DNA from: Rubrivirga marina
Lineage (GTDB): Bacteria; Bacteroidota; Rhodothermia; Rhodothermales; Rubricoccaceae
NCBI RefSeq assembly: GCF_002283365.1
Contig: NZ_MQWD01000001.1
Coordinates: forward strand, 2,072,944-2,136,943
DNA length: 64,000 nucleotides
Reading direction: 5' to 3'
Positions 4,699 to 60,686 of this stretch are shown in pieces. A program made the translations under genes and the position numbers. The number at the start of each line of letters is the position of its first letter. The first letter of the stretch is position 1. The notes below the pieces were generated by a model. That model saw only the letters and a list, made by a program, of their open reading frames with translations. It was not told the origin of the DNA and searched no databases.

Positions 4699-4718
4699 GG
4701 CGTGGCGTGGCTGGTCCT

Positions 4719-4751
4719 CCACAAGCGGAATCCGACCGCGAACCGGCTCAC
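4719..4751 (-). promoter_or_regulatory. conserved 33-nt upstream element, copy B
   Basis: On the minus strand it reads GTGAGCCGGTTCG, a variable middle, then GGATTCCGCTTGTGG, 20 nt before the ATG at 4698. It differs from copy A at two positions in the middle. The following leader (CCAGCCACGCC) also matches copy A, so A and B share about 55 nt of upstream sequence. Confidence 0.55.
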
Positions 4752-4752
4752 G

Positions 4753-4786
4753 CCGTCCGCCTCGGTCGCCTCCCCGAGGCGGACGG
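4753..4786. repeat. hairpin of the CCGCCTCGG family between divergent genes
   Basis: Arms ccgtccgcctcgg (4753-4765) and ccgaggcggacgg (4774-4786) form a perfect 13-bp stem with an 8-nt loop. It is between two divergently transcribed genes (starts 4698 and 4924), so it cannot end either of them. It directly abuts element copy B, just as hairpin 162-193 abuts copy A, which suggests the hairpin-element block was duplicated together. Confidence 0.6.
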
Positions 4787-4877
4787 AACGGGACGGCGGG
4801 CGTCCGGGTCTAGGCCCGCCCCCCGGCGTCGCCCATTGTTCAACGGCAATCCGGGTGACGGGCGGGGGAGTCGGGCG

Positions 4878-9868: not shown

Positions 9869-9873
9869 CCCCG

Positions 9874-9909
9874 GCCGCCTCGGTCTCTCCACGGGTCGAC
9901 CGAGGCGGG
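9874..9909. terminator. bidirectional hairpin, CCGCCTCGG family
   Basis: Arms gccgcctcggtc (9875-9886) and gaccgaggcggg (9898-9909) pair at 11 of 12 positions across an 11-nt loop. It fills the 41-bp gap between the convergent rqcH stop (9868) and the propeller gene stop (9910), the expected place for a shared terminator. Confidence 0.65.
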
Positions 9910-10911
9910 CTAGTCGAGCGAGACGAACGCGAGCCCGTGGTTCGGGTTCATCGGCACCACGAGCTGGTTCGCGCCGGCGTCGTAGCACATCGACGCGGCC
10001 GTCGGGATGCCCCGCGCGATGAGCTCGGCGGGCTCCCCGGGGCGGATCCGGGAGACCCCGCCGTGGGCGATGCTGCTCACGTACGTCGTCCCGTCCGGGA
10101 GGATCACGAGCCCGTCGCCGCCCGCCTGTACGGCGTGCTGCGTCGTGACGAGCTCGCCAGACCGGGAGAACGTCAGCACCGCGTCGTCGCCGTAGTTGGC
10201 GACGACCAGGCGGCCCTGGGGGTCGAAGGCGATCCCGTTAGGCTGGACGAGCGGGGCGCCCTCGATGAGGACCGACGCCGCCCCGTCTGTGCCGATCCGC
10301 CAGACCCGGAACGTCGAGGCGTCAGGGTCCGGGCTGAGGTCGCCGGTCTGGGTGACGAAGACGGTCCCGTCGTCCGCCACCGCGACGTCGTTGAGCCAGG
10401 GGGCGCCGTCGACGCGGACCTCGCGGACGGGCGCGCCGGTCCGCGCGTCGAACTGGCGGATCACGCCCACGCTCGGGTCGTCGGGCCCGGTCCCCCCGTC
10501 GCGGTCGGCGATGGTGAGCACGCCGCCGGCGATCTCGCTCCCCAGCGGCTCGTTGAGCACGAGCGGCGGGGCGAGGCCCGCGCGCTGGTCCGGCCCCTGG
10601 ACCCCGATCCACCGGACCGTGTGGACCGACCCGTCGGAGCGGAGGAGCGAGACCCAGGCGTCGTTCGTCTGGACCGACTGCGGGGCGCCGCGGTTGGGGA
10701 CGACGATCAGGCCGCGCTCGGCGTCGTAGGCGCAGCTTTCGGCGCCGTAGATGGCCCCGAAGACGGTGACGTTCGAGGACGTCGCCTCGAAGGCCCCGTC
10801 CGCGTCGCGGACGCCCAGCGAGTCGCCGACGGCGTACGGCTGGGAGCCCTGCGCGAGCGCCGGGGCGGCGAGCGCGAGCGCGAGAAGTAGGGGAGCGGGT
10901 CGAGTCATCAT
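9910..10911 (-). CDS. exported SMP-30/NHL-like beta-propeller protein
   Basis: 333 residues with signal peptide MMTRPAPLLLALALAAPALA. The mature part consists of propeller-blade repeats typical of SMP-30/gluconolactonase/NHL proteins: APWLNDVAVADDGTVFVTQTGD, QPNGIAFDPQGRLVVANYGDD, GDGLVILPDGTTYVSSIAHG, SRIRPGEPAELIARGIPTAA. Substrate and activity cannot be told; secreted members may be lactonases or simple sensors. No T9SS tail is seen. The first or second ATG (10911 or 10908) could be used. It lies downstream of the aldo/keto reductase on the same strand, but a hairpin separates them, so co-transcription is unlikely. Confidence 0.8.
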   Translation of the reverse strand: MMTRPAPLLLALALAAPALAQGSQPYAVGDSLGVRDADGAFEATSSNVTVFGAIYGAESCAYDAERGLIVVPNRGAPQSVQTNDAWVSLLRSDGSVHTVRWIGVQGPDQRAGLAPPLVLNEPLGSEIAGGVLTIADRDGGTGPDDPSVGVIRQFDARTGAPVREVRVDGAPWLNDVAVADDGTVFVTQTGDLSPDPDASTFRVWRIGTDGAASVLIEGAPLVQPNGIAFDPQGRLVVANYGDDAVLTFSRSGELVTTQHAVQAGGDGLVILPDGTTYVSSIAHGGVSRIRPGEPAELIARGIPTAASMCYDAGANQLVVPMNPNHGLAFVSLD

Positions 10912-10954: not shown

Positions 10955-12010
<1,056 letters not shown>

Positions 12011-12215
12011 CTACCGCAGGAGCCGGGTGAACGAGAGCGAGGCCAGCGTCCAATCACTGCCCTCGCGGACATACACCTCCGTCACCTCGAACGGGTTCGT
12101 CACCTCGTTCCCGCCGACGACGGCGTCGAGCCGGATCGTGTTGAGCACGATGGCCGTCGTGCCGACGAACCGGACCGACGCCGCCTGGATCTCGGCGTGC
12201 TTGTAGTGGATCCCG
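12011..12215 (-). pseudogene. 3' remnant of a DUF4440/SnoaL-like (NTF2-fold) gene
   Basis: The last ~65 codons read [20 protein letters not shown], then NTIRLDAVVGGNEVTNPFEV and TEVYVREGSDWTLASLSFTR, which is the C-terminal half of an NTF2-like DUF4440 protein (strand, Trp near the end, LxFTRL tail). Upstream of about 12215 the frame turns into arginine/serine-rich nonsense, and the opposite strand there encodes a piece of an AraC regulator instead. The N-terminal half is therefore missing. An in-frame ATG at 12352 exists but would give a chimeric, non-family N-terminus. I read this as a deletion scar; a short expressed protein cannot be excluded. Confidence 0.6.
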
Positions 12216-12402
12216 CCGCTCCATTTCCAGAAGGAGGTCCGGCTCCAGGAGGCCCGGCGGCTCCTGCTAGAGGGTAACCTCGACGCGGCGACGGTGGGGT
12301 ACCGCGTGGGTCCAACGACCCGTCGCACTTCAGCCGGGACTCCAAGCGTCACTTAGGCGAGCCGCCGATCCAAGACGTCGCGCGGCTCCGCGAGCCCGCC
12401 GG
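12213..12402 (+). pseudogene. 3' remnant of an AraC-family regulator, frameshifted
   Basis: On the plus strand from 12219 the frame reads [20 protein letters not shown] followed by [11 protein letters not shown], the first half of the second helix-turn-helix of AraC/XylS regulators. After about 12310 the match continues in another frame ([28 protein letters not shown]), where the family has YxDPSHFSREFKRxFG. A one-base loss near 12310 explains the shift. No N-terminal domain or start codon is present, and the fragment begins where the NTF2-like remnant ends, so both genes were broken by one deletion or rearrangement. Confidence 0.6.
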
Positions 12403-12433
12403 CGCCGAGCCCGCCGACAGAGGGCGACCGGTC

Positions 12434-12453
12434 CCGCCTCGGCGCCGAGGCGG
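12434..12453. repeat. hairpin, CCGCCTCGG family, in the remnant region
   Basis: ccgcctcgg and ccgaggcgg form a perfect stem around a 2-nt CG centre. It lies just beyond the AraC remnant and may be the old terminator of that gene. Confidence 0.55.
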
Positions 12454-12472
12454 ACCGACCCGGCACAAACCA

Positions 12473-12507
12473 CGGCGGGGCCGAGCGACACGCGCCCGGC
12501 CCCGCCG
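12473..12507 (-). terminator. GC-rich hairpin after the M36 protease gene
   Basis: cggcggggccg (12473-12483) and cggccccgccg (12497-12507) pair perfectly over 11 bp with a 13-nt loop, 26 nt beyond the stop of the minus-strand gene ending at 12534. Its stem differs from the CCGCCTCGG family. Confidence 0.6.
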
Positions 12508-12533
12508 ATGAGCCTTCCAGGGCCCGAAGGGCC

Positions 12534-15509
12534 TTAGCGGATGACCGTCATCTGGCGCGTGGCGACGAAGTCGCCGGCCTCGAGGCGGTAGACGTAGGTC
12601 CCGCTCGCGAGGCGGCTCACGTCGACGGTGGCCTGGTGGAAGCCGGCGGCATACTGCCCATCGGCGACCTCAGCGACGGCGCGGCCCATCACGTCGTAGA
12701 CGACGAGGCGGACGCGCGCGGCCTCCGGCAGCGCGAACGAGATCTCAGCGGAGCCGCCGCTGGCCGGGTTCGGAGCGCTCTGGTCAAGCGCGAACTCGGA
12801 CGGGAGGTCGCCGGCTTCGAGACCGGCCGTGACGCCGAACTCGGTGAGCGACGCCGTCGTGCCCGGGTACTGCTCCAGGATCCGGCTGGTGAAGCCGTCG
12901 GCGAGGTCGAGCAGGTACTGCTCCTCCTCGTCCGTGAGCCGGCGGACGCCGATGGTCCGGACGCTCGCCGAGAACGCCTCGACGCGGTTGAGCGCGATGG
13001 CGGGCCGCGGGCGGGCCGCGTCGAGCCGCGCCTGCGCGATCGTGATCTTGGCGATGAGCTGGGTCGCCTGCCCGTTCGTGATCGCGCCGGACGCCTTGAG
13101 GGCATTGACGGCGTCGATGATCATGGACGACGTGCTGCACGACGTCGGGAGGTCGAACGCCTCCGTCCCGTCGAGCCGGTCGTAGTAGGCGCCCTGGTCG
13201 GCGCTGGCGCCGAGGCCGCGGCGGGAGAACGCATCCCAGATGAGGCACTGGTTCGCGCCGCCCGTGATGGCCACGTCGGCCGTGAGGATGGCGTCGCGGC
13301 CGTCGACGAAGCCCGGCCGGCACGGCTGGATCTTCAGCCCCTCGGTCACGAGGGCGAGGGCGAGGTTGTTGCCGCCGGTGCCGGTGTAGACGTCGGGGTC
13401 CCAGCCGTGGCGGTCGACGAGGGCGCGGGTCATGTCCCAGGCCATCGAGGCCCACACGAAGCCGACGCCGTGCGGCGCCGAGGCCGTCTTGATGTAGTCG
13501 TACGTGGCCGGGTTCGTGCCGAAGCTCGTGCTGTAGCGGTAGGGGCGGATGCCCTGGCCCGTCGTCGGCTCGAAGTTGAGGTACGTCCCGATCCCGCGGC
13601 CGTCGGTGTTCGTGTCGGTGAGGAGGAGCGCGTAGTAGTCGCTCCAGCCCTCGCCCATCTGCTCGCTCGTGAACGGCACGCCCCCGACGGTGTAGTTCGT
13701 GGCGAGGCAGCTCGTCGTGGCGGGCCCGCCCGTGAGGCGGTTCGAGATGCCGTGGCCGTACTCGTGGACGATGACGCCGTTGTCGAAGTCGCTGTCGCGG
13801 TTGAGCACGCTCTGGCCGAGGTTCCGGACGGTCGCCGCGGTCGGGAGGGCGGCCACGAGGGCGGCCCCGGTCACGTTGGAGATCATGCCGGCCGGGATCA
13901 CGACCGTCGCGTCGGCGCCGCCGAGCGTGCCGGGGTTGCCCGGGGCGTTGTTGATGACGATCGCGCCGAGCGCGCCGGCGTCCTGGGCGTTCTTGACCTT
14001 GATGGTGAAGGCGCAGGACCCGCGGTAGACGAGGGCAAACTTGCCCGCGACCTCGGCCGCGTTGACGAGCGGGCCGCACCCCTCGTTCGGGAGCGCCGTC
14101 CCGTCGTTGACGAGCGCGACGTCGAGCGTGACGCCGGTCGTCGGGAACGGGACGCCGAAGGCGGCGGCGCTCATGACGTCGGTCGTCGTGCCGAACGAGA
14201 TCTCGTTGACGAGCGCGGTGCCCCAGACGTACATCTGCATGCGGGGCGCGGAGCCGTCGACAGGGGTCGAGAAGTTGGCGTTGTTCGTGCCGGAGTAGTC
14301 CTGGGTCTGGGCGTTGACGGCGTCGTTGCCGGCGCCGAAGCCGGTCGTGTTCGTCGCCTGGAAGTTGCCGGAGGGCTCGTCGAAGCCGTAGAACCAGGCC
14401 ACGTCGTGGACGATGTTGTTCCAGTAGAACAGGTTGGTCACGGCCGCCGGGCGGTAGGCGTCGGGCGACTGGACGCCCGGGTCGAAGGCGAAGTCGAAGA
14501 GGAGGCTCGGGCCGCCCTCGGCCTCGGTCCCCGGCTCGATCCCGTCGGGGGCGAGGAGGTCGAGTCCGGCGTGGACGTTGTTGCCGCGCGTGATGGTGAA
14601 GGACGTCGAGCCGTTGTTGTGCCAGCCGAGCGGGGAGGCCGTCGCGTTGACGCCGGTCGCGAGCGTGCGGAGGTCGGTGTAGGGGTCGCCGCCGTGGCTC
14701 GGGCTCTCGACGGCGCCGGCGTAGACGCGGTACTGCGCGCTGGCGCCGGAGACGCCGGCCTGGGCGCCGATCGTGGCCGTGCCCGTGAGCCGGGCGAGGT
14801 CGACGAGCGTCGAGCTCGAGGCGGGCGACACGGGCGCGACGACGGCCCAGCCCTCAGGGAGGTGGTCGTCGGCGGCCCAGTGGTCCTCGTCGGTCAGGCT
14901 GCCCGTGCCGAGGATGGCGCCGGAGCCGGCGTCGACGGCGACCTGCCAGAGGCGCTGATCTTCGGGCGTCGAGAGGTCGACGAGCCACGCGAGCGTCGTT
15001 GGGCCGCCGATGGCGGGCACGTACCGGAGCCGCGCGAGGATGTCGTCGGAGGCGAGGTCGCTGCGGAAGACGACGCCCTCGCCGAGGCCGCGGAAGTCGC
15101 GGGCGACCTCGAGCGTCGGCGAGAAGCCGAGCGAGGACGCGGCCGTGCGGACGGCGGCGTCGGCGGACAGCACGCGGGCGCCCTGGGCGGTGCGGCCGAC
15201 GTTGGCGACGGCCCGGCTGTTGGCCGAGAGCACGCGGCCGGCCCGGTCGACGGCGACGTTGACGATCCCGTCGTGGACGGGGACGCCGCCGAGCGTCTGC
15301 TGGAAGTAGACGTGCGTGACGCCGGAGACGCGGCTCACGGACTGGTGAGCGACGGCGAGGCCGTCCAGGTCGCCGGCGGCGAGGCCGAGCCGGCCCGCGT
15401 TCTGGCGGACGTAGAGGCCTGCCGCGTCGACGGCGGACTGGGCGACTGCGGCGGAGGCGGTCAGGAGGACGAGGGCGCCGAGGGCGGCGAGAGAACCCAA
15501 ACGGGTCAT
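12534..15509 (-). CDS. exported M36 (fungalysin-type) metalloprotease with PA domain and T9SS sorting tail
   Basis: 991 residues from the ATG at 15509 (MTRLGSLAALGALVLLTASA, signal peptide); an upstream in-frame ATG at 15701 would precede it with non-secretory sequence. A fungalysin/thermolysin propeptide (~30-200, VTHVYFQQTLGGVPVHDGIV) is followed by the M36 catalytic region, in which a PA domain (~470-560, FALVYRGSCAFTIKVKNAQD) is inserted. Zinc motif HEYGHGISNRL is near residue 580, with the downstream glutamate motif GEGWSDYYALLLTD. The last ~80 residues are a T9SS type A sorting domain (LVVYDVMGRAVAEV...GTYVYRLEAG). It is predicted to be exported through the outer membrane and activated by propeptide removal. 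Maturation and substrates are unknown. Confidence 0.93.
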   Translation of the reverse strand: MTRLGSLAALGALVLLTASAAVAQSAVDAAGLYVRQNAGRLGLAAGDLDGLAVAHQSVSRVSGVTHVYFQQTLGGVPVHDGIVNVAVDRAGRVLSANSRAVANVGRTAQGARVLSADAAVRTAASSLGFSPTLEVARDFRGLGEGVVFRSDLASDDILARLRYVPAIGGPTTLAWLVDLSTPEDQRLWQVAVDAGSGAILGTGSLTDEDHWAADDHLPEGWAVVAPVSPASSSTLVDLARLTGTATIGAQAGVSGASAQYRVYAGAVESPSHGGDPYTDLRTLATGVNATASPLGWHNNGSTSFTITRGNNVHAGLDLLAPDGIEPGTEAEGGPSLLFDFAFDPGVQSPDAYRPAAVTNLFYWNNIVHDVAWFYGFDEPSGNFQATNTTGFGAGNDAVNAQTQDYSGTNNANFSTPVDGSAPRMQMYVWGTALVNEISFGTTTDVMSAAAFGVPFPTTGVTLDVALVNDGTALPNEGCGPLVNAAEVAGKFALVYRGSCAFTIKVKNAQDAGALGAIVINNAPGNPGTLGGADATVVIPAGMISNVTGAALVAALPTAATVRNLGQSVLNRDSDFDNGVIVHEYGHGISNRLTGGPATTSCLATNYTVGGVPFTSEQMGEGWSDYYALLLTDTNTDGRGIGTYLNFEPTTGQGIRPYRYSTSFGTNPATYDYIKTASAPHGVGFVWASMAWDMTRALVDRHGWDPDVYTGTGGNNLALALVTEGLKIQPCRPGFVDGRDAILTADVAITGGANQCLIWDAFSRRGLGASADQGAYYDRLDGTEAFDLPTSCSTSSMIIDAVNALKASGAITNGQATQLIAKITIAQARLDAARPRPAIALNRVEAFSASVRTIGVRRLTDEEEQYLLDLADGFTSRILEQYPGTTASLTEFGVTAGLEAGDLPSEFALDQSAPNPASGGSAEISFALPEAARVRLVVYDVMGRAVAEVADGQYAAGFHQATVDVSRLASGTYVYRLEAGDFVATRQMTVIR

Positions 15510-50283: not shown

Positions 50284-50688
50284 ATGCTGACCCAACTCGT
50301 CTACGCCTCGTCCGCCGTCGGCGCGCTCAGCGGCGACGACCTCGCCCAGATCCTGCGCGCGAGTCGAGCGAGGAACGGCGCGGCCGCCGTGACGGGCGCG
50401 TTGCTCTATCACGAGGGCAACATCATGCAGGTGCTCGAAGGCTCGCCCGAGGCGGTCGAGGCCGTCTACACCCGCGTTGAGGCCGACCCCCGCCACCGCG
50501 GCGTCATCATGCTGTACCGGGCCTCCGCCGAGGAGCGCGCGTTCCCCGACTGGTCGATGGGGCTCGTCCGGCCGGAGGACGTCGCAGGCGAACGCGACGG
50601 CGTCCACTCGTTGTTCGACGTGGCCGTGCCGGGTCCGGACCGCGCGCGGCGCTTGCTCCACGCCTTCCGCGCGCTCGTCAGCCGCTGA
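50284..50688 (+). CDS. BLUF blue-light photoreceptor protein
   Basis: 134 residues, a stand-alone BLUF domain that binds FAD. MLTQLVYASSAVG has the key Tyr7; RNGAAAVTGALLYHEGNIMQ then VLEG gives Asn31 and Gln49, the residues that rearrange on light; HRGVIMLYRASAEERAFPDW then SMG gives Trp90 and Met92. The C-terminal ~30 residues form helices that could pass the signal on. No output domain is fused and no partner gene is obvious. It is divergent from the helicase gene. Confidence 0.93.
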   Translation: MLTQLVYASSAVGALSGDDLAQILRASRARNGAAAVTGALLYHEGNIMQVLEGSPEAVEAVYTRVEADPRHRGVIMLYRASAEERAFPDWSMGLVRPEDVAGERDGVHSLFDVAVPGPDRARRLLHAFRALVSR

Positions 50689-50741: not shown

Positions 50742-51629
50742 CTACGGCTGCCAGGTCAGTCCGGCGCCGAGGAAGACGGTCGTCGCCGCCACCGTGTCGG
50801 TCTGGCCACCGGCCTCGTAGGAGAGCGAGGCGAACGCGGCCGAGAGGCCCGCGTCGACGGCCAGCGACGGCGAGAAGAAGTACCGGACGCCGCCCTCGAC
50901 CTCGCCCGCGGGGCCGGTGTAGTCGACCGAGCCGGTGGCGCCCGAGGTCGCGTCGGCGGAGTAGGTCGCCGTCTGGAACTCGACCCCGGCGCCGACGAAC
51001 GGCACGAGCTGGGCCCGCCCGCCGCCGAAGTGGTACCGCCCGCCGAGGCCCGCGCGCCCGAGCTGGAGGTCGTAGGGCGCGTCGCCAGTGGCCGAGGACC
51101 CGCTGAGCTGGGCGTGAACCGAGAGCGTTGGTGACACCCCGTAGCTCAGGGTGAGGGCGCCGCCGCCGCCGCTGAACGAGTCGTCATCGTCGTCGGAGTA
51201 GCCGAGGGCGTGGGCGCCGAACGAGACGGAAAACCCGTCGCGGGTGGAGGCCACCGCGCCACCGGTGCGCGCCGGGGCCGGCCGGCCCCGCCGCATCTCG
51301 CTCACGAGGCGGACGAACGGGGGCGGGTCGAGGGCCGGGTCGGGCTCGTAGTTCGGGGCCACCTCGAGAAGGGATGCGACGGCCTCGCGGGCGTCGGCCT
51401 CGCGGTCCTTCCCGATGTAGCTCAGGCCGATGAGCCGGTAGGCTGCGCGGCGCTCCTCGATCGAGAACGCGTCGGCCTCCAGGCAGGTCGTCAGCCGGTC
51501 GATCGTCTGGTCGAACTCGCCGGACTGGTAGCTCGACTGGGCCCGGTCGAGGGCCTGGGTGCAGTTCTGGGCCGCGGCCGGGGTGAGGGCGAGGGCCGCG
51601 AGCAGGGCGGCGAGGGGGAGGCGCGTCAT
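50742..51629 (-). CDS. outer-membrane beta-barrel protein with TPR-like N-terminus, end of the phospho-signalling operon
   Basis: 295 residues; signal peptide MTRLPLAALLAALALTPAAA. Residues ~22-110 are helical and TPR-like (QALDRAQSSYQSGEFDQTID, AYRLIGLSYIGKDREADARE). From ~125 the sequence is an eight-strand-type barrel (DGFSVSFGAHALGYSDDDDD, LSVHAQLSGSSATG, LGGRYHFGGGRAQLVPFVGA, GVEFQTATYSAD, AATTVFLGAGLTWQP) ending in a Trp strand. The ATG at 51629 overlaps the upstream kinase stop by 4 bp, so it is translationally coupled to the kinase. Role unknown; a surface output or structural partner is possible. Confidence 0.85.
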   Translation of the reverse strand: MTRLPLAALLAALALTPAAAQNCTQALDRAQSSYQSGEFDQTIDRLTTCLEADAFSIEERRAAYRLIGLSYIGKDREADAREAVASLLEVAPNYEPDPALDPPPFVRLVSEMRRGRPAPARTGGAVASTRDGFSVSFGAHALGYSDDDDDSFSGGGGALTLSYGVSPTLSVHAQLSGSSATGDAPYDLQLGRAGLGGRYHFGGGRAQLVPFVGAGVEFQTATYSADATSGATGSVDYTGPAGEVEGGVRYFFSPSLAVDAGLSAAFASLSYEAGGQTDTVAATTVFLGAGLTWQP

Positions 51630-53767
51630 GGCGTCTGGAGAGGAGAGAGGGTGAGCGTGATGCGGGAGGGGGCGCGGCCGGCCTCGACCGTGACCGTCTG
51701 CGAGGCCGGCGCGAAGCCGTCGCGCTCGACCCCGATCGTGTGGCGCCCCGGTGGGACCGTCACCACGGCCGGCGTGTAGCGCCCCGTCGGCCGCCCGTCG
51801 AGGAGGATCTCGGCGTTGTTGGGGTCCGAGACGACGGTGACCTCGGCCGGCGTGGCGAACTGGAGGCGGACGTCGGCCGTCTCGCCGGCCCGCACGCGGA
51901 CCGTCTCGGTCAGCTCGCCGAACTCGGGGTGGGTGGCGCGGACGGTGTAGGTGCCGGGCGCGAGGTCGGCGGTCACGGGCGCGTTCGTGCCCCGCGCCAG
52001 CCGCCGCCCGTCGATGTACACGTCGCCGAAGGGGCGGACGAGGACGCGGGCCGTGCCGGTCCGCGGCGCTGCGGGCTCGGCCGGCGCAGGCCGAGACTCA
52101 ATGTGCTCGGGTGGGGCTGGCTCTTGGCGCTCCGTCGCGCGTCGCTCCTCCACCCGCCGGGGTAGCTCCGCTGGCGACGGGGACCGGGAGGTCTCCGGCG
52201 GGGGGCGCTCGGCACTCGAGGCGGCGTCGGCCGGCGCGATCGTCTCCCCCGGCCCCGCAGTCTCGGGCGAGCCGATGGCCGGGCCGTCCGGCCGTGCCGG
52301 CACGGGTTGGAGGGCCCGCGGCACGGGCTCGAGCGCGGATACCGAGCCCTCTCCCCGAGCCTCGGCGATCGGCTCGGCGGTGAGCGGGTCGGCCCCCCCG
52401 TTCGGCCAGACCGCCCACGCGGCCGCGGCCAGCAGCACGCCGGCGGCCGCCGCCAGCGCCGGCCGGGGGAGCGCGGCGACCCGGTCCCGGAGCGTCGGCT
52501 GCGGGGACCAGTCCCCACCCGGAGTCGGCACGGGCGCCGTCATGCCCGCGGGCGCGATCCGCGTCGGCGGCACGACGCGGGGCGCGGGGCCCGGAGTACC
52601 GCCCTCCGGGACGGCGAGGACGGTGGGTGACGGCCGCCGATCGTCGCCAGAGCGCAGGGCGTCGACGGATTCTGGTGCGTCTACCTCGGTCTCCTGCGAC
52701 GGAGCGATCGTCGTTTCAGGAGGCGATGTTGGGGTCTCCGACGAGATCTCCGAGGTCGAGTCCGCGACCGCCGAGAGGCTGGTCGAGGCGGGCTCGGTGG
52801 CGTCCTTCCCCCGATCGCCCGGCTCAGGGCCCTCGCGAGCGCGAGGGGCCGGCGCGGCGACGGTGGCCTTTGGAGGGCGCTGCGGTTGTCGCTGGCCGCT
52901 CGGCTCCGCAGCTTCCGGTTCCGAGGGCGTCGGGATCGGGTCCGCGAGCGGTGCGTCGAGCGCCACGTCCGCCAGCGCGGCGCGGAAGGCGGCGACGGAC
53001 GGGTGGCGGTCGGCCGGGTCCTTGGCGAGCGCCGTCAGGAGGGCGGCCTCGACCGCCTCGGGGAGGCCGGGGACGAGGTGTCGCGGCGACGGCGGGGCGG
53101 CCTGGAGGTGCGCCTGCATCGTCTCGAACGCGCTCTCGGCCTCGAACGGGACGCGGCCCGTCACCATCTCGTACAGCATCACGCCGAGCGCGTAGACGTC
53201 CGTCCGCGCGTCGACCTCGCGGGCGCGGACCTGCTCGGGGGCCATGTACTCGGCCGTCCCGATGGCGTGGCGGGTCTGGGTCATCCGCGTCGAGCCGAGG
53301 AGCCGGGCGATCCCGAAGTCCATGGCCTTGACGGTCCCGCCCGGCGTCAGCATGAAGTTGGCCGGCTTCACGTCACGGTGGACGATCCCGCGGCGGTGGG
53401 CGTGCTCCAGCCCTTGGAGGGCCTGGTCGAACAGGGCGAGCGCGCGGCCCACGGGCAGGCGGCCCTCGCGGTGGAGGAGGGCCTCGAACGTCTCGCCCTC
53501 GACGAACTCCATGACCATGTAGAGGTCGTCGCCGTCGCGGTGGAGCGCGTAGAGCGTGGCGATGTGCGGGTCGAGGAGCCGCGCGAGCGTCCGGGCCTCC
53601 TGCCGGAACCGCTCGACGTGCTGCGGCGAGGCGGCGACGTCGGCGCGGAGGGCCTTCACCGCGACGGGCCGGTCGAGCATGAGGTCGAGCCCGCGGTAGA
53701 CGGTCCCCATGCCGCCCTTGCCGAGGAGCGACTCGATGCGGTACGTCCCGATGACGCGGCCGATCAT
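51626..53767 (-). CDS. transmembrane Ser/Thr protein kinase with PEGA domains
   Basis: 713 residues. Kinase domain 1-270: GKGGMGTVYRG (16-26), Lys38, catalytic HRDVKPANFM (130-139), DFGIARLLGS (150-159), APEQ (~176). A long proline/threonine/glutamate-rich linker (270-435) leads to one membrane helix (LAAAAGVLLAAAAWAVWPNG, ~440-460), then another linker and two PEGA beta-sandwiches (~590-713: GTARVLVRPFGDVYIDGRRL, PAEVTVVSDPNNAEILLDGR). The PEGA part would lie in the periplasm and may sense surface structures. The start overlaps the PP2C stop by 4 bp. Confidence 0.94.
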   Translation of the reverse strand: MIGRVIGTYRIESLLGKGGMGTVYRGLDLMLDRPVAVKALRADVAASPQHVERFRQEARTLARLLDPHIATLYALHRDGDDLYMVMEFVEGETFEALLHREGRLPVGRALALFDQALQGLEHAHRRGIVHRDVKPANFMLTPGGTVKAMDFGIARLLGSTRMTQTRHAIGTAEYMAPEQVRAREVDARTDVYALGVMLYEMVTGRVPFEAESAFETMQAHLQAAPPSPRHLVPGLPEAVEAALLTALAKDPADRHPSVAAFRAALADVALDAPLADPIPTPSEPEAAEPSGQRQPQRPPKATVAAPAPRAREGPEPGDRGKDATEPASTSLSAVADSTSEISSETPTSPPETTIAPSQETEVDAPESVDALRSGDDRRPSPTVLAVPEGGTPGPAPRVVPPTRIAPAGMTAPVPTPGGDWSPQPTLRDRVAALPRPALAAAAGVLLAAAAWAVWPNGGADPLTAEPIAEARGEGSVSALEPVPRALQPVPARPDGPAIGSPETAGPGETIAPADAASSAERPPPETSRSPSPAELPRRVEERRATERQEPAPPEHIESRPAPAEPAAPRTGTARVLVRPFGDVYIDGRRLARGTNAPVTADLAPGTYTVRATHPEFGELTETVRVRAGETADVRLQFATPAEVTVVSDPNNAEILLDGRPTGRYTPAVVTVPPGRHTIGVERDGFAPASQTVTVEAGRAPSRITLTLSPLQTP

Positions 53768-54615
53768 GACGTCGGGCCCTCGGCCGTGGGCCGGGCCGGG
53801 CGGGCCGCCGTCGCCGTGCGCACCTGGACGACCGCCACGGTCACGTTGTCGTAGCCGCCCCGGGCCTTGGCCGTCTCGACGAGCACCGCCGCCGCAGCGT
53901 GAGCGCTCCCGCCCTCCAGCGCGTGGCCGATCTCGGCGTCGTCGACGAGGTCGTACAGGCCGTCCGACATCAGCACGAACACGTCGCCGGGCGCGACCGC
54001 CAGCGGCCCGCTCAGGGCCGGGTCGGTCTCGGCGCGGATCCCGAGGGCCCGCGTGATCACGTTGCGCGCGTCGTGGTGGCGGGCCTCCTCAGGCGTGAGG
54101 AGGCCTTCGGCCACCATCTCCTCGACCATCGAGTGGTCGGTCGTCAGCCGCTCGATCTGCCCGTCGCGGAGGCGGTAGAGGCGGCTGTCGCCGACGTGGG
54201 CCCAGAACGCCTCGGCGCCCCGGACCGCGAGGGCCGTGCAGGTCGTCCCCATGCCCTCGCGCCCTGGCTGGGCCGCCGCGGCGTGGATCCGGGCGTTGGC
54301 CGACACGAACGCCCGGCCGAGGGCCTCGCGCGGCGTGCCCGGTGCGGCGTAGTAGGTCTCGGCCACGACGTCGGCGGCGGTCGCGCTGGCGACGTCGCCG
54401 GCCTCGTGCCCGCCCATCCCGTCGGCCACGAGGACGAGGACGCCGCGCTGCCCGAGCGTGGCCGCGTCGCCCGGGCGGACGCACCGGCCCCGGTCCTCGT
54501 TCTGCTCCCGGACGTTGCCGACGTCGGACACGATCGCGACGTCGAGGTCGAACGGGTCGGGCGGAGCGGGGGCCGCCACCGTCGGTCGGGCGGAGCGGGA
54601 ACGGAAGGGCCACAT
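53764..54615 (-). CDS. PP2C-family Ser/Thr protein phosphatase
   Basis: 283 residues, soluble. Metal-binding aspartates are in NVREQNEDRGR (39-42) and VLVADGMGGHEAGDVASATA (65-73); further PP2C motifs are GTTCTALAV, AHVGDSRLYRLRDGQIERLT, VFVLMSDGLYDLVDD and GGYDNVTVAVV. It removes phosphate from Ser/Thr, presumably from the kinases and FHA protein in the same operon. Spacing: 4 nt after the upstream kinase stop and a 4-bp overlap with the downstream kinase start. Confidence 0.95.
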   Translation of the reverse strand: MWPFRSRSARPTVAAPAPPDPFDLDVAIVSDVGNVREQNEDRGRCVRPGDAATLGQRGVLVLVADGMGGHEAGDVASATAADVVAETYYAAPGTPREALGRAFVSANARIHAAAAQPGREGMGTTCTALAVRGAEAFWAHVGDSRLYRLRDGQIERLTTDHSMVEEMVAEGLLTPEEARHHDARNVITRALGIRAETDPALSGPLAVAPGDVFVLMSDGLYDLVDDAEIGHALEGGSAHAAAAVLVETAKARGGYDNVTVAVVQVRTATAARPARPTAEGPTS

Positions 54616-54619
54616 GGGG

Positions 54620-55840
54620 TCAGCGGGGGAGGGTGACGGTGTAGGCCCGCTTGCCGGCCGTCGTCTCGAAGCGGACGGGCTCGCGGGCGCTGTCGCGGCG
54701 GAGTTCGACCTCGACGGGCTCGCCGACGTAGCTGTCGATCACGAGGGGCGTCTGCCCGAGGCGGACGCCGCCGCGCCAGACCTCCGCCGGCGGCCCGACC
54801 GCGTCGATCGTCACGCCGACGGGGACCGCGTCGGCGGGCCGGGCCGCCTCGGCGACCGCGGGGGGCGGGTCGATCGCGACCGGCCCGTCGCTGAGCGTCC
54901 GCCCGACGAGGGCCACCAGCGCGAGGGCTGCGACGGCGGCAGCGACCCAACCGGCGTGGGCGCGGGTGAGCACGGGCCGTGGGCGACGGGCCCTTCGGAC
55001 GGGACCAGAGCGGAGGGCGTGCTCAGGCGTGGGGTCGGGCCGCCGCGCGCTCGGGAGTGCCGCGAGGACGGCCCCGGCGTCGGCGAATCGGGCGGCTGGG
55101 TCCGGGCGGAGGCACCGGGCCACGAGGGCGTCGGCCTCGGGGGGGACCGAGCGGACGCGGGCCGAGGGCGGGGCGTACTCGCCGCGCGCGATCCGCTCGA
55201 ACAGGCGGAACGCCGACGGCGCCTGGAACGGGACGTCGCCCGTGAGCAACTCGTAGAGGAGCACGCCGAGGGCCCATACGTCGGACCGGGCGTCGGGCGG
55301 CCGGCCGCGGACTTGCTCGGGCGAGAGGTACTCCGGCGTGCCGGGCACCGCGTCCCCGGCGGTCAGGCCCTGCGCGCCGAGCTCCTTGGCGATCCCGAAG
55401 TCGAGGAGCGTCACCCGGCCCTCCGGCGTGACCTTCACGTTGTGGCTCTTGAGGTCCCGGTGGATCACGCCGTGGGCGTGGAGGTAGGCCACGGCCTCGA
55501 CGATGGGGCGGAGCACGGCGACGGCCTCGGGCCACGGCAACGGGCCCCGGCGGAGCCGGTCGGCGAGCGTCTCGCCCTCGATCAGCTCCATCGTGATGCA
55601 CGCCCGGCCGTCGCACTCGAAGTAGTCGTAGAGCGTGGCGACGTTGGGGTGCCGGAGGCCGGCCTGGATCCTCGCCTCGTTGAGGAAGCGGGCGGAGAGG
55701 TCCGGGTCGCGGAGCACCTTCAGCGCGACGACCCGCCCGATCCGGACGTGCTCGGCGCGGAACACGGTGCCCATGCCGCCCTGGCCGAGCCGGGCGGCGA
55801 GGCGGTAGTCGCCGAGGAGGGTGCCGGGGCGGAGGTCCAC
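54620..55840 (-). CDS. membrane Ser/Thr protein kinase with short C-terminal domain
   Basis: 406 residues. Kinase motifs: LGQGGMGTVFRAEHV (18-32), Lys41, catalytic loop HRDLKSHNVKV (127-137, Ser where Pro is usual), LLDFGIAKEL (145-154), SPEQVRGRPPDARSDVWALG (~173-193). A helix at ~288-308 (HAGWVAAAVAALALVALVGR) anchors it. The C-terminal ~95 residues (VGVTIDAVGPPAEVWRGGVR, LGQTPLVIDSYVGEPVEVEL) are a PEGA-like beta domain outside the membrane. It starts 54 bp after the FHA-protease stop, with a hairpin between, and is followed tightly by the phosphatase. Confidence 0.94.
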   Translation of the reverse strand: MDLRPGTLLGDYRLAARLGQGGMGTVFRAEHVRIGRVVALKVLRDPDLSARFLNEARIQAGLRHPNVATLYDYFECDGRACITMELIEGETLADRLRRGPLPWPEAVAVLRPIVEAVAYLHAHGVIHRDLKSHNVKVTPEGRVTLLDFGIAKELGAQGLTAGDAVPGTPEYLSPEQVRGRPPDARSDVWALGVLLYELLTGDVPFQAPSAFRLFERIARGEYAPPSARVRSVPPEADALVARCLRPDPAARFADAGAVLAALPSARRPDPTPEHALRSGPVRRARRPRPVLTRAHAGWVAAAVAALALVALVGRTLSDGPVAIDPPPAVAEAARPADAVPVGVTIDAVGPPAEVWRGGVRLGQTPLVIDSYVGEPVEVELRRDSAREPVRFETTAGKRAYTVTLPR

Positions 55841-55858
55841 GGGTCGGGGAGGCCAGGC

Positions 55859-55881
55859 CCCGTCCGCGCGTGGCGGACGGG
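55859..55881 (-). terminator. 9-bp hairpin between the FHA-protease and kinase genes
   Basis: cccgtccgc and gcggacggg pair perfectly with a 5-nt loop, 13 nt past the stop of the FHA gene. It may only reduce read-through into the kinase gene. Confidence 0.5.
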
Positions 55882-55894
55882 CCCAGACCGGTGT

Positions 55895-57580
55895 CTAGAG
55901 CGTGCCCGTCGCGCGCATGAGGTCCATCCCGTACTTGATCGGGATGGCGTAGGTCACGTTCGTGCTCCCCATGGTCCGGCCGTACGTGAAGATGCCGATC
56001 ACGCGGCCGTGGTCGTCGAACACGGGCCCGCCGCTGTTCCCGTTGCCGGTCTCGCTCGTCGAGAGCTGGTAGGCGTCGGGGAAGCCGCTGTACGAGACGA
56101 CGCGCTCGTTCGGGTTGGAGCCCTGGGCCGCGTTCCGGCTCCGGTGGATCGACGAGATGTTGGCCGGCGTGACCGTCACGCGGGGGACGTACGTCCCGAC
56201 CATCCCGCCCCCGCCGGCCTCGGTGTTCTGGACGACCGACACGTCGATCCCCGAGATGCCGGGGTAGCCCATGATCACGACGGGCTCGCCGACCTCAGAC
56301 GTCTCGTACGAGTCGTGGAGCGTGACGGCGTGGAGCGGCTCCTGCGCGTCGATCTTGATGGTCGCCGCGTCGCCGCGCGGGGAGAGCCGCTCCATCTCGG
56401 CCTCGAACGGGATGTCCGAGTTCTGGAACGTGACCTGGATCTCGGGCTCGCCCTTGAGCGGGCTCTGGTTCGTGATCCCCGTCTGCTGCTGCTGGTAGAA
56501 CACGGACCGCGTCGGGATCCACTGGCCGACCTGCTCGGGCGACTGGAGGACCGTCGGCTCGCCGAGCTGGCCGTCCTGCGTCACCGGGTACATCTTGGCG
56601 GGGAAGGTCCCCTGCGGGAAGAAGTACGGGTAGTTCCAACCCGCGACGACGTGCTTGTTCGTGAGGATGAACCCGTCCTGGCTGACCACGAAGCCGGATC
56701 CCGTCGACGCGCTCCGGATCGGCTGGTTGATCCCGTCGGGGTCCGCCAACTCGAGGAACGGCTCGACCTGGCCGTCGGGGAGCCGGACGAAGACGGCCAA
56801 CGGGGTGACCTGCCCGTTGCCGAGGTCGGTCATCTCGTACCGCTGGTAGACCTGCCGGTCGGAGTTGGCGTCGAGCAGCTTCCAACTCGACTCGATGAAG
56901 ACGACGGCGTCGCCGTGGGCGTTGGTGATCGCGGCCGGCGACATCGGGCCGGCCGCCGCCAGCGAGTCGACGACGGTCCGGACGTCGCCCCGGACGTCCT
57001 GGGGCTCGGGCCGGAGGAAGAAGAACAGGGCGGCGACGAGGGCGAGCACGCCGGCGCTCACCCCGAGGAGGAGGCCCGTCGACTTCCGCTGCGACTGGCG
57101 GTGGCTCTCGGTCACGATCCGCTCGACGGTCTCCCGGCCGACGCCGGCCTTCTCCGGGGCGCGCTCGGCGGCCGAGGCCAGCGACGGCGAGAGCGTCGTG
57201 GCCTTGCTCGAGCGGGGCCGGGCGATGACCGTCTCGCGGGCCGGGCGGGGCTCGGCGTCGAACACGAACTCGGGGCCGCCCTCGCCGAGCTGGACCGTGT
57301 CGCCGGGCCGGATCGACGCGCTCCCGGCCACCTGGATCTTGTTGACGAACGTGCCGTTGCGGCTGCCGAGGTCGGTGATCGAGTACGTGTCGTCGCCGTC
57401 GCGGGTGATCTTGAGGTGCTCGCGGCTGACGAGCTCGTCGATGTCGGGGTCGTAGGTCACCGCGGCGTCGGCCTCGCGGCCGAAGGTGACCTCGTCGAAG
57501 GCGGCGAAGGGGAACTCCTCGACCTGGTTGGCCTTGGAGCCGGACAGGTGCCGGATGACGAAGCGTTGGGGAGTGCTCAT
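55895..57580 (-). CDS. FHA - transmembrane - trypsin-like periplasmic protease
   Basis: 561 residues from the ATG at 57580; a longer reading from 57610 is unlikely because the conserved upstream element is adjacent. FHA domain ~30-105 with GR (34-35), SREH (52-55) and RNGTFVN (74-80), the phosphothreonine-binding set. A linker (115-165) has threonines (ARETVIARP) that could be phosphorylated. One helix, 168-189, is followed by a chymotrypsin-fold protease with His310 (LTNKH), Asp404 (RGDAATIKI) and Ser516 (GNGNSGGPV), all intact. The topology places FHA in the cytoplasm and the protease outside. Inference: kinase signalling regulates proteolysis across the membrane. Confidence 0.93.
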   Translation of the reverse strand: MSTPQRFVIRHLSGSKANQVEEFPFAAFDEVTFGREADAAVTYDPDIDELVSREHLKITRDGDDTYSITDLGSRNGTFVNKIQVAGSASIRPGDTVQLGEGGPEFVFDAEPRPARETVIARPRSSKATTLSPSLASAAERAPEKAGVGRETVERIVTESHRQSQRKSTGLLLGVSAGVLALVAALFFFLRPEPQDVRGDVRTVVDSLAAAGPMSPAAITNAHGDAVVFIESSWKLLDANSDRQVYQRYEMTDLGNGQVTPLAVFVRLPDGQVEPFLELADPDGINQPIRSASTGSGFVVSQDGFILTNKHVVAGWNYPYFFPQGTFPAKMYPVTQDGQLGEPTVLQSPEQVGQWIPTRSVFYQQQQTGITNQSPLKGEPEIQVTFQNSDIPFEAEMERLSPRGDAATIKIDAQEPLHAVTLHDSYETSEVGEPVVIMGYPGISGIDVSVVQNTEAGGGGMVGTYVPRVTVTPANISSIHRSRNAAQGSNPNERVVSYSGFPDAYQLSTSETGNGNSGGPVFDDHGRVIGIFTYGRTMGSTNVTYAIPIKYGMDLMRATGTL

Positions 57581-57695: not shown

Positions 57696-58394
57696 CTACG
57701 GACGGGCTGAGCGGACGAACCGCCCCTGGAGCACGCCGTCGTAGCGGAGCGCGTCGTACCGGACGAGCCCGGCCTCCCAGCTCCACCACTCGACGCCCAG
57801 CGCGCCCGTGCCGTCGGGATGGGCCGGGCCCTCGATCACGACGGCCTCGAACGTCCCGGCCGGGACCGTGACGGTCTCGACGCGCACGGCGCGGTAGTGG
57901 AGCGGGCTCTGCGTGCAGTCGCCCCAGACGTCGAGCGCCCCCGCGGCCTCCCTCGGGACCCGGACGAACGTGACCGGGCCCGCCTCGGCGGTCGATCGGA
58001 CGCGCCAGAGCCCGAGGTCCGGGCAGTCGTGGGGGACCGTCACCGTGAGCCCCTCGCTCGAGACGTCGACGCGCGCGTCCGAAAGCGGGAGCCCCGCCTC
58101 CGCGAACCGAGAGAGCGGGCTGTCCGCGCCCGGGTCGCGCCACGCGACCCGGCGGCCGGTGGAGGTCCCGGGCCCACCGTCCGCCACGACGTGCATCTCA
58201 ACGGCGCGTGGGGTGGCTGGCGCGCGGCGGAACGGGGGCGTCCGCCCGGGGCCGAGGACCGACAGTGAGTCGGGGCCGGGCGTGTAGTCGAAGGTCGCGA
58301 CCGCGCCGACCTCGGTCCAAGCGGGGCCGTCGTCGGAGACCAGGTCGCACCCGGCGATCGAGAGCAGGAGGAGGGCGACGAGGGAGGCGCGCAT
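57696..58394 (-). CDS. hypothetical lipoprotein
   Basis: 232 residues from the ATG at 58394: MRASLVALLLLSIAGCDLVS, lipobox with Cys16. The beta-rich body has cysteines at PHDCPDLG and WGDCTQ. The C-terminal half (VRVETVTVPAGTFEAVVIEG, WWSWEAGLVRYDALRYDG) matches the general pattern of secreted proteins with a YxVxPAGxFxAV(V)V element followed by xxxWYAxGVGxV, in which a property is reported as a converted ester or equivalent. No known family is certain. Its stop is followed at once by the upstream region of the FHA gene. Confidence 0.72.
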   Translation of the reverse strand: MRASLVALLLLSIAGCDLVSDDGPAWTEVGAVATFDYTPGPDSLSVLGPGRTPPFRRAPATPRAVEMHVVADGGPGTSTGRRVAWRDPGADSPLSRFAEAGLPLSDARVDVSSEGLTVTVPHDCPDLGLWRVRSTAEAGPVTFVRVPREAAGALDVWGDCTQSPLHYRAVRVETVTVPAGTFEAVVIEGPAHPDGTGALGVEWWSWEAGLVRYDALRYDGVLQGRFVRSARP

Positions 58395-58470
58395 CCGAGG
58401 AGACGGAGGAGAGCGCCCAAGGTGCGGAGCCGCCGTTTCCGCCGCCTGGTCCGTTCGCACTACCGACCTC

Positions 58471-58518: not shown

Positions 58519-60507
58519 TTACAGGTCGCGGGCGTCGTTCGAGACGTCGTCGTCCGGGTAGTCGCCGGAGCCGTTGATGCGGGCCGAGATCAGCGTCCGG
58601 CCGCCGAGCGGGACGCGGGCGCCGGCCGTGTCAGACGAGAAGTAGGCCTCGGACGGGATCACCGCCGTCTCCGTCGAGCCGTCCGAGAACGTGAACTCGA
58701 CCGTGGTCGGGAGGACGAGGCCGAGCCGGTTCTCGACCGTCGCCACGGCCGCGTCGCCATCGACCGAGAGCGCCACGAGAGCCTGGTCGAACTGATCGGT
58801 CGTGTAGAACCAGCCGCGCCAGAACCAGTCGAGGTCCTCGCCGGTCACGTTCTCGATCGTGCGGAAGAAGTCGGCCGGCTGGGGGTGCTTGTAGGCCCAC
58901 CGGCGGATGTACTCGCGGAACGCCGCGTCGAACCGCTCGGGGCCGACGACCTCGTCGCGGAGCAGCAGCAGGCCCTTCGCCGGCTTCCGGTAGGCCAGCC
59001 ACCCGAGCGCGGGCCGGCGGATCCGGTCGGGGTACGTCATGACCGGCTGGTCGGCCGCGTAGTCCTGGCGGAGGAACTCGGCCGCGGCCGGGCCCTCCGT
59101 CAGCCGGACGATCCGCGTCGAGTCGCTCATGCCGTAGCCGGCGATCGTCGGGTCCTCGTTGTCGTCGTAGAAGGCGACGTTGGCGAACGCGTTGAGGTAC
59201 GAGGTGAACCCCTCGTCCATCCACGCGTAGCGCCGCTCGTCGGAGCCGACGATCATCGGGAACCAGTTGTGGCCGAGCTCGTGGTCGATGACCCCGAACA
59301 GCGACATGAACCGGGCGTCGACGCTGGAGAAGTGGAGCATCGGGTACTCCATGCCGCCGACCACGCCGGCGACCGAGATCGCGACGGGGTACGGGTAGGG
59401 GTACCACCGGCTGTTGGCGAGGATCGACGCGCGGCCGAACCGCGTGGCCTCCTCCCACCCCGGGGTCTCGGGCGTGCCGATCCCCTCGTGCGGGTACGCG
59501 CTCATGACGAGGACGTCGTTGACGCTGCCGTCGTCCAGCTCGACGGACGCGTTCGCCGCGTCGAGGATGAATGCCTCGGACGCCGCCCACGCCACGTCGC
59601 GCACGTTCTCGGCGCGGAAGCGCCACGTCGTCGTGCCCGTCCGCCGCCGCGTCGCGCGCTGGGTGCCGACCTCGTCGGGCGGGATGATGTAGACGCGCCC
59701 GGCCGACCGGCGGGCCTCCGCGAGGCGGTCCCGCTGCGTCTCGGTGTAGACCTCGCCCTCGTTGAGGAGCTCGCCGGTCCCGACGACCGTCATCGTCGAG
59801 GGCACGGTGATGGCGTACTCGAAGTCGCCGTAGCCGAGGTAGAACTCGCCCTGGCCGAGGTACGGCATCGTGTTCCACCCGCTCACGTCGTCGTAGACGG
59901 CGACACGCGGGTACCACTGGGCGAGTTCGTAGACCACGCCGCGCTCGGTCTCGAGGCGGCCCATCCGGTCGGCCCCGTACTCCGGGACCACGAACGCGTA
60001 CGGCACGACGATCTCGACGCGCCCGCCGTCGCGCTCGAGGGTCTCGGGCAGGTCGAGCCGCATGCGCGTGTCGTCGACCACGGGCTCGACGGGCTGGCCG
60101 CCGATGGTGACGGTCCCGAGGCGGTAGCCGCCGTCGGGGAACGAGCCGCGCCAGCGGCTGTCGGGCGGCGTCCGGCGCGCGCCGCGGGAGGCGGGCCCGA
60201 ACAGGTTTTGCTCGAGGTGCATCCACACGAAGTCGAGGTCGTGCGGGCTCTCGTTCGTGTACGTCAGGGTGACGGTGCCCGTGACGGTGTGCGTGGCGGG
60301 GTCGAGGGCGGCCTCGATGTCGTAGTCGTTCTCGTTCTGCCAGTAGGCCGGGCCGGGGCGGCCGTCGGCGGCGCGGTACTGGTTGGGCGTGGGGAGGTCG
60401 AGCGGGGCGAAGAGCGCGTCGTTCGTCTCGGGGAGCGCGTCGGTCTGCGCGAAGGCGGGCGCGACGAGGAGCGTGAGCGCCAGGAGGGCGCCGGTCAGTC
60501 GATGCAT
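58519..60507 (-). CDS. exported M1-family metallopeptidase (aminopeptidase N-like)
   Basis: 662 residues from the ATG at 60507 (MHRLTGALLALTLLVAPAFA, signal peptide). An N-terminal beta-saddle (~45-250, ALDPATHTVTGTVTLTYTNE) is followed by the thermolysin-like catalytic domain: VVGGMEYPMLHF (a GxMEN-type substrate loop in altered form), VIDHELGHNWFPMIVGSDER with HELGH near 408, and WMDEGFTSYLNAF with the second Glu near 431. The Bacteroidota M1 group of this length usually lacks the large C-terminal domain, as here. Peptide substrates are unknown; it has no T9SS tail. Confidence 0.94.
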   Translation of the reverse strand: MHRLTGALLALTLLVAPAFAQTDALPETNDALFAPLDLPTPNQYRAADGRPGPAYWQNENDYDIEAALDPATHTVTGTVTLTYTNESPHDLDFVWMHLEQNLFGPASRGARRTPPDSRWRGSFPDGGYRLGTVTIGGQPVEPVVDDTRMRLDLPETLERDGGRVEIVVPYAFVVPEYGADRMGRLETERGVVYELAQWYPRVAVYDDVSGWNTMPYLGQGEFYLGYGDFEYAITVPSTMTVVGTGELLNEGEVYTETQRDRLAEARRSAGRVYIIPPDEVGTQRATRRRTGTTTWRFRAENVRDVAWAASEAFILDAANASVELDDGSVNDVLVMSAYPHEGIGTPETPGWEEATRFGRASILANSRWYPYPYPVAISVAGVVGGMEYPMLHFSSVDARFMSLFGVIDHELGHNWFPMIVGSDERRYAWMDEGFTSYLNAFANVAFYDDNEDPTIAGYGMSDSTRIVRLTEGPAAAEFLRQDYAADQPVMTYPDRIRRPALGWLAYRKPAKGLLLLRDEVVGPERFDAAFREYIRRWAYKHPQPADFFRTIENVTGEDLDWFWRGWFYTTDQFDQALVALSVDGDAAVATVENRLGLVLPTTVEFTFSDGSTETAVIPSEAYFSSDTAGARVPLGGRTLISARINGSGDYPDDDVSNDARDL

Positions 60508-60582
60508 GCGGGGGAGTCGTGGAGAAGCCCGGGGAACGTAGCGCTGTCCCGATCCCGTGTCGGACGGTGCGAAACGGTCCCG

Positions 60583-60609
60583 ACCGCCTCGGCATAGCGG
60601 CCGAGGTGG
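60583..60609. repeat. hairpin, CCGCCTCGG family, between divergent genes
   Basis: ccgcctcgg (60583-60591) and ccgaggtgg (60601-60609) pair with a 9-nt loop. Both flanking genes are transcribed away from it (starts 60507 and 60687), so it cannot be their terminator. Confidence 0.55.
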
Positions 60610-60686
60610 GCACACGCTTCGTCCCGCACGGAGGTCGTGAGACGTGGTAGCATGTGGGGCACACATGCCACGCCCCGTCCCGTCCC

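Follow-up and report, generated by a model that had tools for sequence, protein, structure and literature searches.

Introduction

As far as the excerpts of the sources extend, the described systems nearest in logic to the locus reported here are the kinase-kinase-phosphatase (KKP) modules of Pf prophages and the threonine-phosphorylation control of the type VI secretion system (T6SS). The locus is a five-gene operon of Rubrivirga marina, at positions 50742 to 57580 of a 64,000-nucleotide stretch of contig NZ_MQWD01000001.1 (positions 2,072,944 to 2,136,943, assembly GCF_002283365.1), hereafter the window. It encodes a protein in which an FHA domain, a linker and a hydrophobic helix precede an HtrA-like trypsin domain, together with two Hanks-type kinases, a PP2C phosphatase and an outer-membrane barrel protein. 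We found the FHA protein, the phosphatase and one of the kinases to be conserved together across phyla, and we propose tentatively, giving it slightly less than an even chance, that they may constitute a self-contained threonine-phosphorylation switch across the inner membrane, acting on a PDZ-less HtrA-like protease. The author of a preliminary description of this DNA did not know of such a combination and, among the matches listed in the open-access literature of PubMed Central, outside which most subscription papers lie, we found no description of an FHA-helix-protease protein with kinase and PP2C either; as far as searched the cassette is undescribed, systems of the kinase-phosphatase-FHA kind being known and the new element being an output protease that is probably periplasmic. 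The features of the operon are:

55895-57580, minus strand: FHA domain, linker, hydrophobic (transmembrane, TM) helix and HtrA-like trypsin domain without PDZ (561 aa; Pfam)
57080-57250, minus strand: predicted cytoplasmic linker of this protein, residues 111-167, with conserved Thr117, Thr128 and Thr151 (GRETVER motif; alignment)
54620-55840, minus strand: kinase 1, Hanks-type kinase, hydrophobic helix and C-terminal domain of about 94 aa, PEGA-like (406 aa)
53764-54615, minus strand: PP2C phosphatase (283 aa)
51626-53767, minus strand: kinase 2, Hanks-type kinase, long linker, hydrophobic helix and two PEGA stretches (713 aa)
50742-51629, minus strand: secreted protein with an N-terminal part that is TPR-like by eye and an outer-membrane beta-barrel (295 aa)

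More than 1200 putative KKP clusters have been reported, nearly 90% of them in prophages; of their two kinases, PfkB contains FHA and the other has a cold-shock domain, the search was defined by the order PP2C-kinase-kinase with 900-1300 bp for each gene, and the output is set by the balance between kinase and phosphatase (PMC11341870). To the extent that the excerpts of that report allow a comparison, the window operon resembles these modules in uniting two Hanks kinases, one PP2C and FHA in one operon. In contrast, FHA is found here on a membrane protease, each kinase has a C-terminal domain preceded by a hydrophobic helix, the genes are arranged as FHA protein-kinase 1-PP2C-kinase 2, and kinase 2 measures 2142 bp. 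A Pfam scan of both window kinases gave kinase- and PEGA-type matches only, with neither FHA nor cold-shock domain.

PppA is the PP2C phosphatase of the PpkA/PppA/Fha pathway of type VI secretion. Judging from the available part of the source, T6SS control likewise combines kinase, PP2C and FHA reader in one pathway, but its output is an assembled secretion machine, whereas in the window operon it would be a protease fused to the reader (PMC3953482). A further likeness lies in the secreted protein encoded downstream, the N-terminal part of which matches TssQ_fam weakly (31.7 bits, cut-off 65). As for linkage to T6SS genes, VipB was the only family tested. Its two matches, at C1:1067584 and 1085316, are some 1 Mb distant from the operon, and another FHA match accompanies them at 1086550, all within C1:1067584-1086700.

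Among single proteins, the window protease shares the chymotrypsin fold and the His-Asp-Ser triad with the HtrA/Deg proteases, DegS and MarP included, and differs from them in having no PDZ match, an N-terminal FHA domain and two conserved insertions, recognized by eye, one preceding the GSGF strand and one following the catalytic His. It remains below the cut-offs of the HtrA/Do family TIGR02037 (78.8 bits against 416.2) and of MarP (53.8 against 250). The kinases likewise fall short of the PknB/PASTA family NF033483 (kinase 2, 344.5 bits; kinase 1, 258.7; cut-off 450), with no PASTA repeats in the Pfam scan, and the phosphatase reaches 220.1 bits with the Stp1/IreP model (cut-off 230). GarA and OdhI are small soluble proteins with a threonine N-terminal to FHA. 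The window protein resembles them in having FHA beside a short segment with conserved threonines suited to phosphorylation-dependent switching; unlike theirs, this segment is C-terminal to FHA, between the domain and the membrane helix. Its score against OdhI in NCBIfam is 35.2 bits (cut-off 200), and its PDB matches also include the GarA/OdhI type. Trypsin-like domains, FHA, PEGA, serine/threonine kinases and PP2C all occur in VMAP/vWA-MoxR and trypsin-containing conflict systems (PMC7159879). The excerpts of that survey describe no FHA-TM-trypsin protein with PP2C and kinases, and the nine proteins scanned at the locus gave no match to vWA, MoxR or the other VMAP-network components named in them.

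Results

A scan of one genome per species yielded 45 loci with relatives of the FHA protein, chosen by patterns of this protein, neighboring genes playing no part in the search. They belong to Bacteroidota, Balneolota, Rhodothermota, Acidobacteriota and others: on the Bacteroidota, Balneolota and Rhodothermota side they come from Spirosoma, Larkinella, Runella, Ferruginibacter, Saprospiraceae, Lewinella, a Balneolaceae metagenome-assembled genome (MAG) and Rubrivirga, many are from Acidobacteriota (Pyrinomonas, Chloracidobacterium, Blastocatellia, Bryobacterales and Acidobacteriaceae), and the contig of one Abditibacteriales locus stops before any neighboring gene. Wherever 3.5 kb or more of downstream DNA is available, which is so in 40 loci, PP2C and kinase 2 lie downstream on the same strand; one of these loci is L077, which carries a different output domain. 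Kinase 1 is found in 30 of the 40 and missing in 10. The five loci outside this count have less downstream DNA (L047, where kinase 1 precedes the contig end, L063, L068, L069 and L074). Ten further loci with flanks (L082, L083, L107, L108, L141-L143 and L146-L148), whose FHA proteins show 40-70% identity to the best-matching protein of the first set, contain PP2C and kinase 2 in nine cases; matches of the genome search in G324 and G393 lie outside this set. The core of the cassette is thus the FHA protein, PP2C and kinase 2, kinase 1 being optional. The preliminary description had made its proposal depend on conservation of the gene set beyond this strain, and the set is kept across phyla. Since PP2C and kinase 2 are adjacent in 40/40 relatives, the association exceeds chance; nevertheless, 40 loci do not amount to 40 independent events, because close relatives (many Spirosoma, Larkinella and Runella) are over-represented.

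We built maximum-likelihood trees for the FHA protein, for PP2C and for kinase 2 (32 rows, namely the window and 31 of the 45 loci, the rest being truncated or without one of the three proteins after overlap filtering). They had 16, 20 and 16 of 29 splits in common, where shuffling gave a mean of no more than 0.26. In all three, the window grouped, together with its Rubrivirga relative, with Acidobacteriota copies and not with Bacteroidota copies. These were quick trees, with SH-aLRT support only and long-branch warnings; they largely agree, as would be expected of a cassette inherited as a unit, and part of the agreement is due to relatedness within genera. At the thresholds used the cassette is rare. 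Counting the window's own genome, it matched in 5/198 genomes of the same phylum, in 7/199 of the phylum of the Acidobacteriota genome G223 (G223 included; two of the seven in the protease part only) and in 2/148 of the order of the Spirosoma genome G224 (G224 included). Five of 114 genomes matched in the window's order: the window's own and G002 have the protease, G013 has it as a fragment at a contig edge, and the remaining two match in the FHA part only; within the genus, G002 has the FHA-protease match, and no full-length one was found in G001 (97% complete) or G003 (93%).

The five genes run in the same direction on the minus strand from 57580 to 50742; the first junction spans 54 nt, the second 4 nt, and at each of the last two the genes overlap by 4 nt, so that the gaps and overlaps of 4 bp reported earlier for the last three agree with the gene coordinates. 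Pfam scores of the window proteins exceed the cut-offs for FHA (E 4.5e-15, residues 31-99), trypsin (Trypsin_2, E 5.9e-21), kinase, PP2C, PEGA (kinase 2) and barrel. For the FHA protein, alignment with relatives favors the ATG at 57580, a longer GTG start at 57610 being possible. Its protease triad (H310-D404-S516) and FHA residues (R35, S52, R53, H55 and N75) are present, with one strong hydrophobic window between the domains (best window, residues 170-188), bearing out the intact sites and single helix of the preliminary description. Counted over the 52 proteins with a protease match, the triad is conserved in 51 (H), 51 (D) and 52 (S), and R35 and H55 of FHA in 52/52. The phosphothreonine-pocket motif of phospho-reading FHA domains consists of Gly-Arg, Ser/Gly-Arg-x-His and Asn-Gly. 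The FHA domain fits this motif and is predicted to bind phosphothreonine, the pocket residues being conserved in 50/50 proteins for G34, R35, H55 and G76, 48/50 for R53 and 49/50 for N75. An AlphaFold model from 35 aligned sequences was confident for the FHA domain and mostly so for the trypsin domain, the top Foldseek matches of which were AlgW, HtrA1, DegP and DegS; no PDZ domain was found in the Pfam scan of the protein, whose chain ends just past the trypsin domain.

The linker is variable, only 10 of 59 columns being conserved at 85% or more, and three of these are Thr117, Thr128 and Thr151, found in 48/49, 46/47 and 47/48 of the rows with a residue at that position. At the end next to FHA a Pro-Arg-Pro is likewise conserved, and so are Gly148, Lys149 (replaced by Arg in the window), Glu153 and Arg154; a G-[KR]-x-T-[VFL]-E-R motif around Thr151 was matched in 48/50 proteins. 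The alignment excludes L080, L081 and L086, which are the same loci as L054, L079 and L035. A pattern count gave a threonine 5-19 residues past FHA in 50/50 proteins (L035 and L141, where the pattern missed the FHA end, are excluded); this count is weak by itself because threonine makes up 9.9% of linker residues, column conservation being the better evidence.

In the window proteins, the kinase residues (K, HRD, DFG) and the acidic site of PP2C are intact, and in relatives the K/D/D residues are conserved in 53/53 (kinase 2) and 35/35 (kinase 1) and the PP2C site in 42-43 of 43. The activation loop has Thr163 and Thr171 in every one of the 53 kinase 2 proteins. A hydrophobic window, weaker than that of the FHA protein, separates kinase domain and C-terminal part (best window in kinase 1, 294-312; in kinase 2, 436-454); it is found with at least 56 residues beyond it in 53/53 kinase 2 proteins, the shortest ending at a contig edge, and with a C-terminal part in 32/35 kinase 1 proteins, the other three being L047, which ends at the contig edge, and two Runella copies (295 aa) too short to score. 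The two kinases had both been described as bearing PEGA. Pfam supports this for kinase 2, whereas kinase 1 of the window gave no Pfam PEGA match (limit E 10, HMMER filters on), and its C-terminal 94 or so residues, which align with relatives, are PEGA-like by eye only; in two Acidobacteriota relatives PEGA scored 18.0 and 17.0 bits, short of the threshold of 20.8. Among the kinase 2 proteins scanned, PEGA was found in those of the window and L085 and in none of the other eight. The barrel protein matches OMP_b-brl at 32.3 bits (cut-off 28.7). Besides the window and L085, a related gene follows kinase 2 in 23 Bacteroidota-side loci (the two scanned were OMP_b-brl); it was not found in some loci, such as L058 of Ferruginibacter, and 11 Acidobacteriota loci have a different common secreted gene at this position, with sub-cut-off TPR matches only in the one scanned (L042). 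PEGA on kinase 2 and the barrel are therefore lineage-specific and outside the core.

The output domain can be exchanged. In L077, from a Cytophagales MAG (9001-10695), some 390 residues whose Cys-His-Glu pattern is transglutaminase-like take the place of the trypsin part, whereas the FHA domain is 53% identical, threonine is kept at the first two linker positions, and the operon retains PP2C, kinase 2 and barrel, plus a further secreted protein. L111 (7610-9241) carries the enzyme and the secreted partner as a pair with no FHA match, at 48% and 29% identity (the latter E 2e-22). We tentatively assign the domain as transglutaminase-like, from the Cys250, His276 and Glu291 (numbering of the 386-aa L077 fragment) invariant in the 48%-identical pair L077/L111. 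Pfam gave DUF553 only, at E 0.24 (0.076 for the stand-alone relative), and a search of solved-structure sequences gave no match to the L077 domain. A single-sequence AlphaFold model of the L077 protein had a mean pLDDT of 34.7 and was not used. In L085 FHA stands alone, with PP2C, PEGA kinase 2 and barrel. A second FHA protein of the family in the genome of L143 (G1288), L144 (7378-9573, minus strand), has NHL repeats, forming an NHL propeller, in place of the protease, with no kinase or PP2C match within 9.7 kb. As a separate observation, FHA is fused to a PrsW-type intramembrane protease in Acidobacteriota genomes: L149 (43-1680, minus strand; Pfam E 2.3e-53), L151 (7494-9338, minus strand; 6.6e-54) and L150 (8154-9809, plus strand), the last of these recognized from similar sequence only. 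This is a further instance of a phospho-reader linked to a membrane protease.

Discussion

The preliminary description had suggested a circuit in which kinase and phosphatase act through the FHA reader on periplasmic proteolysis, and this idea, the simplest and still the most plausible one, gains support because the linker threonines are conserved and the output domains are swapped. We infer the following scheme. Kinase 2, and kinase 1 where present, with C-terminal domains probably outside the inner membrane, would sense an envelope cue and phosphorylate threonines both in the linker of the FHA protein and in its own activation loop. FHA domains would then bind these phosphothreonines, most likely on neighboring copies of the FHA protein or on the kinases, and thereby cluster or reorient the juxtamembrane segment leading into the membrane helix. 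As a result, the activity or assembly of the periplasmic HtrA-like protease domain towards a presumed substrate would change, and PP2C would reset the switch.

Several observations weigh against this scheme. The position of the protease domain is probably periplasmic, judging from one hydrophobic helix and the flanking charge. AlphaFold predicts a helix from 149 to 188, running from the Thr151 motif into the membrane helix, but residues 112-171 have a pLDDT below 50, and a continuous signaling helix is therefore not established. The first linker threonine moves by one column between alignments, because the linker of the window is shorter, and L078 has Arg in the column of the catalytic His. 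Moreover, some loci lack a component. L084 has FHA and PP2C with no kinase match within 18 kb; L145 combines kinase 2 with two FHA domains that precede hydrophobic stretches, and gave no PP2C match; L143 has both kinases, between which PP2C gives only a short remnant match (11725-13011), followed by an unrelated open frame. In L105 and L106 the protease is accompanied by kinase 1 and PP2C-related sequence, and FHA gave no match; kinase 1 is broken into two frames in L106, and L105 (7697-11719) is rearranged as kinase 2-protease-kinase 1-PP2C, with the protease match beginning at the end of the kinase 2 frame; the protease may therefore work without FHA. Reader and output are thus separable both ways, which favors a design of reader plus output, yet also cautions that the protease may manage without FHA.

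Some of this evidence can also be read otherwise. The FHA domain might dock on active kinases at phosphorylated sites of the activation loop or of the juxtamembrane region and so bring the protease to the kinase ectodomains, which it would cut, ending or resetting the signal, so that control would run outside-in on the kinases and not inside-out on the protease. We consider this unlikely. The two activation-loop threonines and the hydrophobic window with C-terminal part, each present in all kinase 2 proteins (the latter also in 32/35 kinase 1 proteins), and the neighborhood of FHA protein and kinase 2 in 40/40 loci speak for it, but it leaves unexplained the three conserved linker threonines as well as modules with a transglutaminase-like domain (L077) or FHA alone (L085). 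The same threonines, conserved beyond the needs of a plain tether, count against another reading, namely that FHA only brings a quality-control protease of the envelope to where the kinases are active, phosphorylation leaving its catalysis unchanged. HtrA-type proteases are often activated by substrate, and the HtrA-like fold in Foldseek and the intact triad speak for this reading, the lack of a PDZ match against it; we regard it as rather improbable.

The patchy spread of the cassette and, as far as the excerpts on KKP go, its two kinases and PP2C recall instead an anti-phage or conflict module of the KKP sort, with protease or transglutaminase-like domain as effector. The output domain of L077 and L111 also matches the N-terminal part of the NCBIfam model "anti-phage protein ProA", at 54.6 and 53.6 bits against a cut-off of 1500; nothing related appeared in the best 10 of 738 literature matches on ProA/ProB. 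However, visual inspection of gene maps for 13 loci revealed no phage genes (no PHROGs search was made), a plasmid search gave no match, and the L077 domain has no PADLOC match. The PADLOC matches of the window proteins (PD-T4-6 kinase models for the kinases, PDC-M21C for the phosphatase and, weakly, RT-Protease_XI for the protease) look like generic kinase, phosphatase and protease similarity; we rejected them as a basis for defense membership, since they reflect domain similarity only. A conflict module is, in our view, very unlikely.

The known cases of bacterial transmembrane proteolytic signaling, such as DegS and the site-1/site-2 cascades, run from the envelope inwards. A phosphorylation switch tying cytoplasmic phosphothreonine to a periplasmic protease could run the opposite way, from the inside out, and bacteria may thus switch envelope proteolysis by phosphorylation. 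If so, the Hanks kinases of Bacteroidota and Acidobacteriota would gain a concrete output and, with three core genes, signal, reset and output could be tested together in strains that carry the cassette, such as those of Spirosoma and Runella. It is possible, if somewhat doubtful, that FHA, linker and TM helix represent a general inside-out transducer in a cassette shared across phyla, in which cytoplasmic phosphothreonine would switch an interchangeable enzyme on the far side, whether HtrA-like protease, transglutaminase-like domain or possibly others.

Some minor observations concern the surroundings of these genes. In L058, two repetitive open frames (4056-4843) may be a CRISPR array read through. 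In the window, a gene for a BLUF blue-light sensor domain (50284-50688, plus strand; E 2.8e-29) is convergent with the end of the operon. Upstream of the operon, on the same strand, lie a small gene (57696-58460, minus strand) with a DUF3108-like match below cut-off (22 bits against 27) and a gene for an M1-family peptidase (58519-60666, minus strand).

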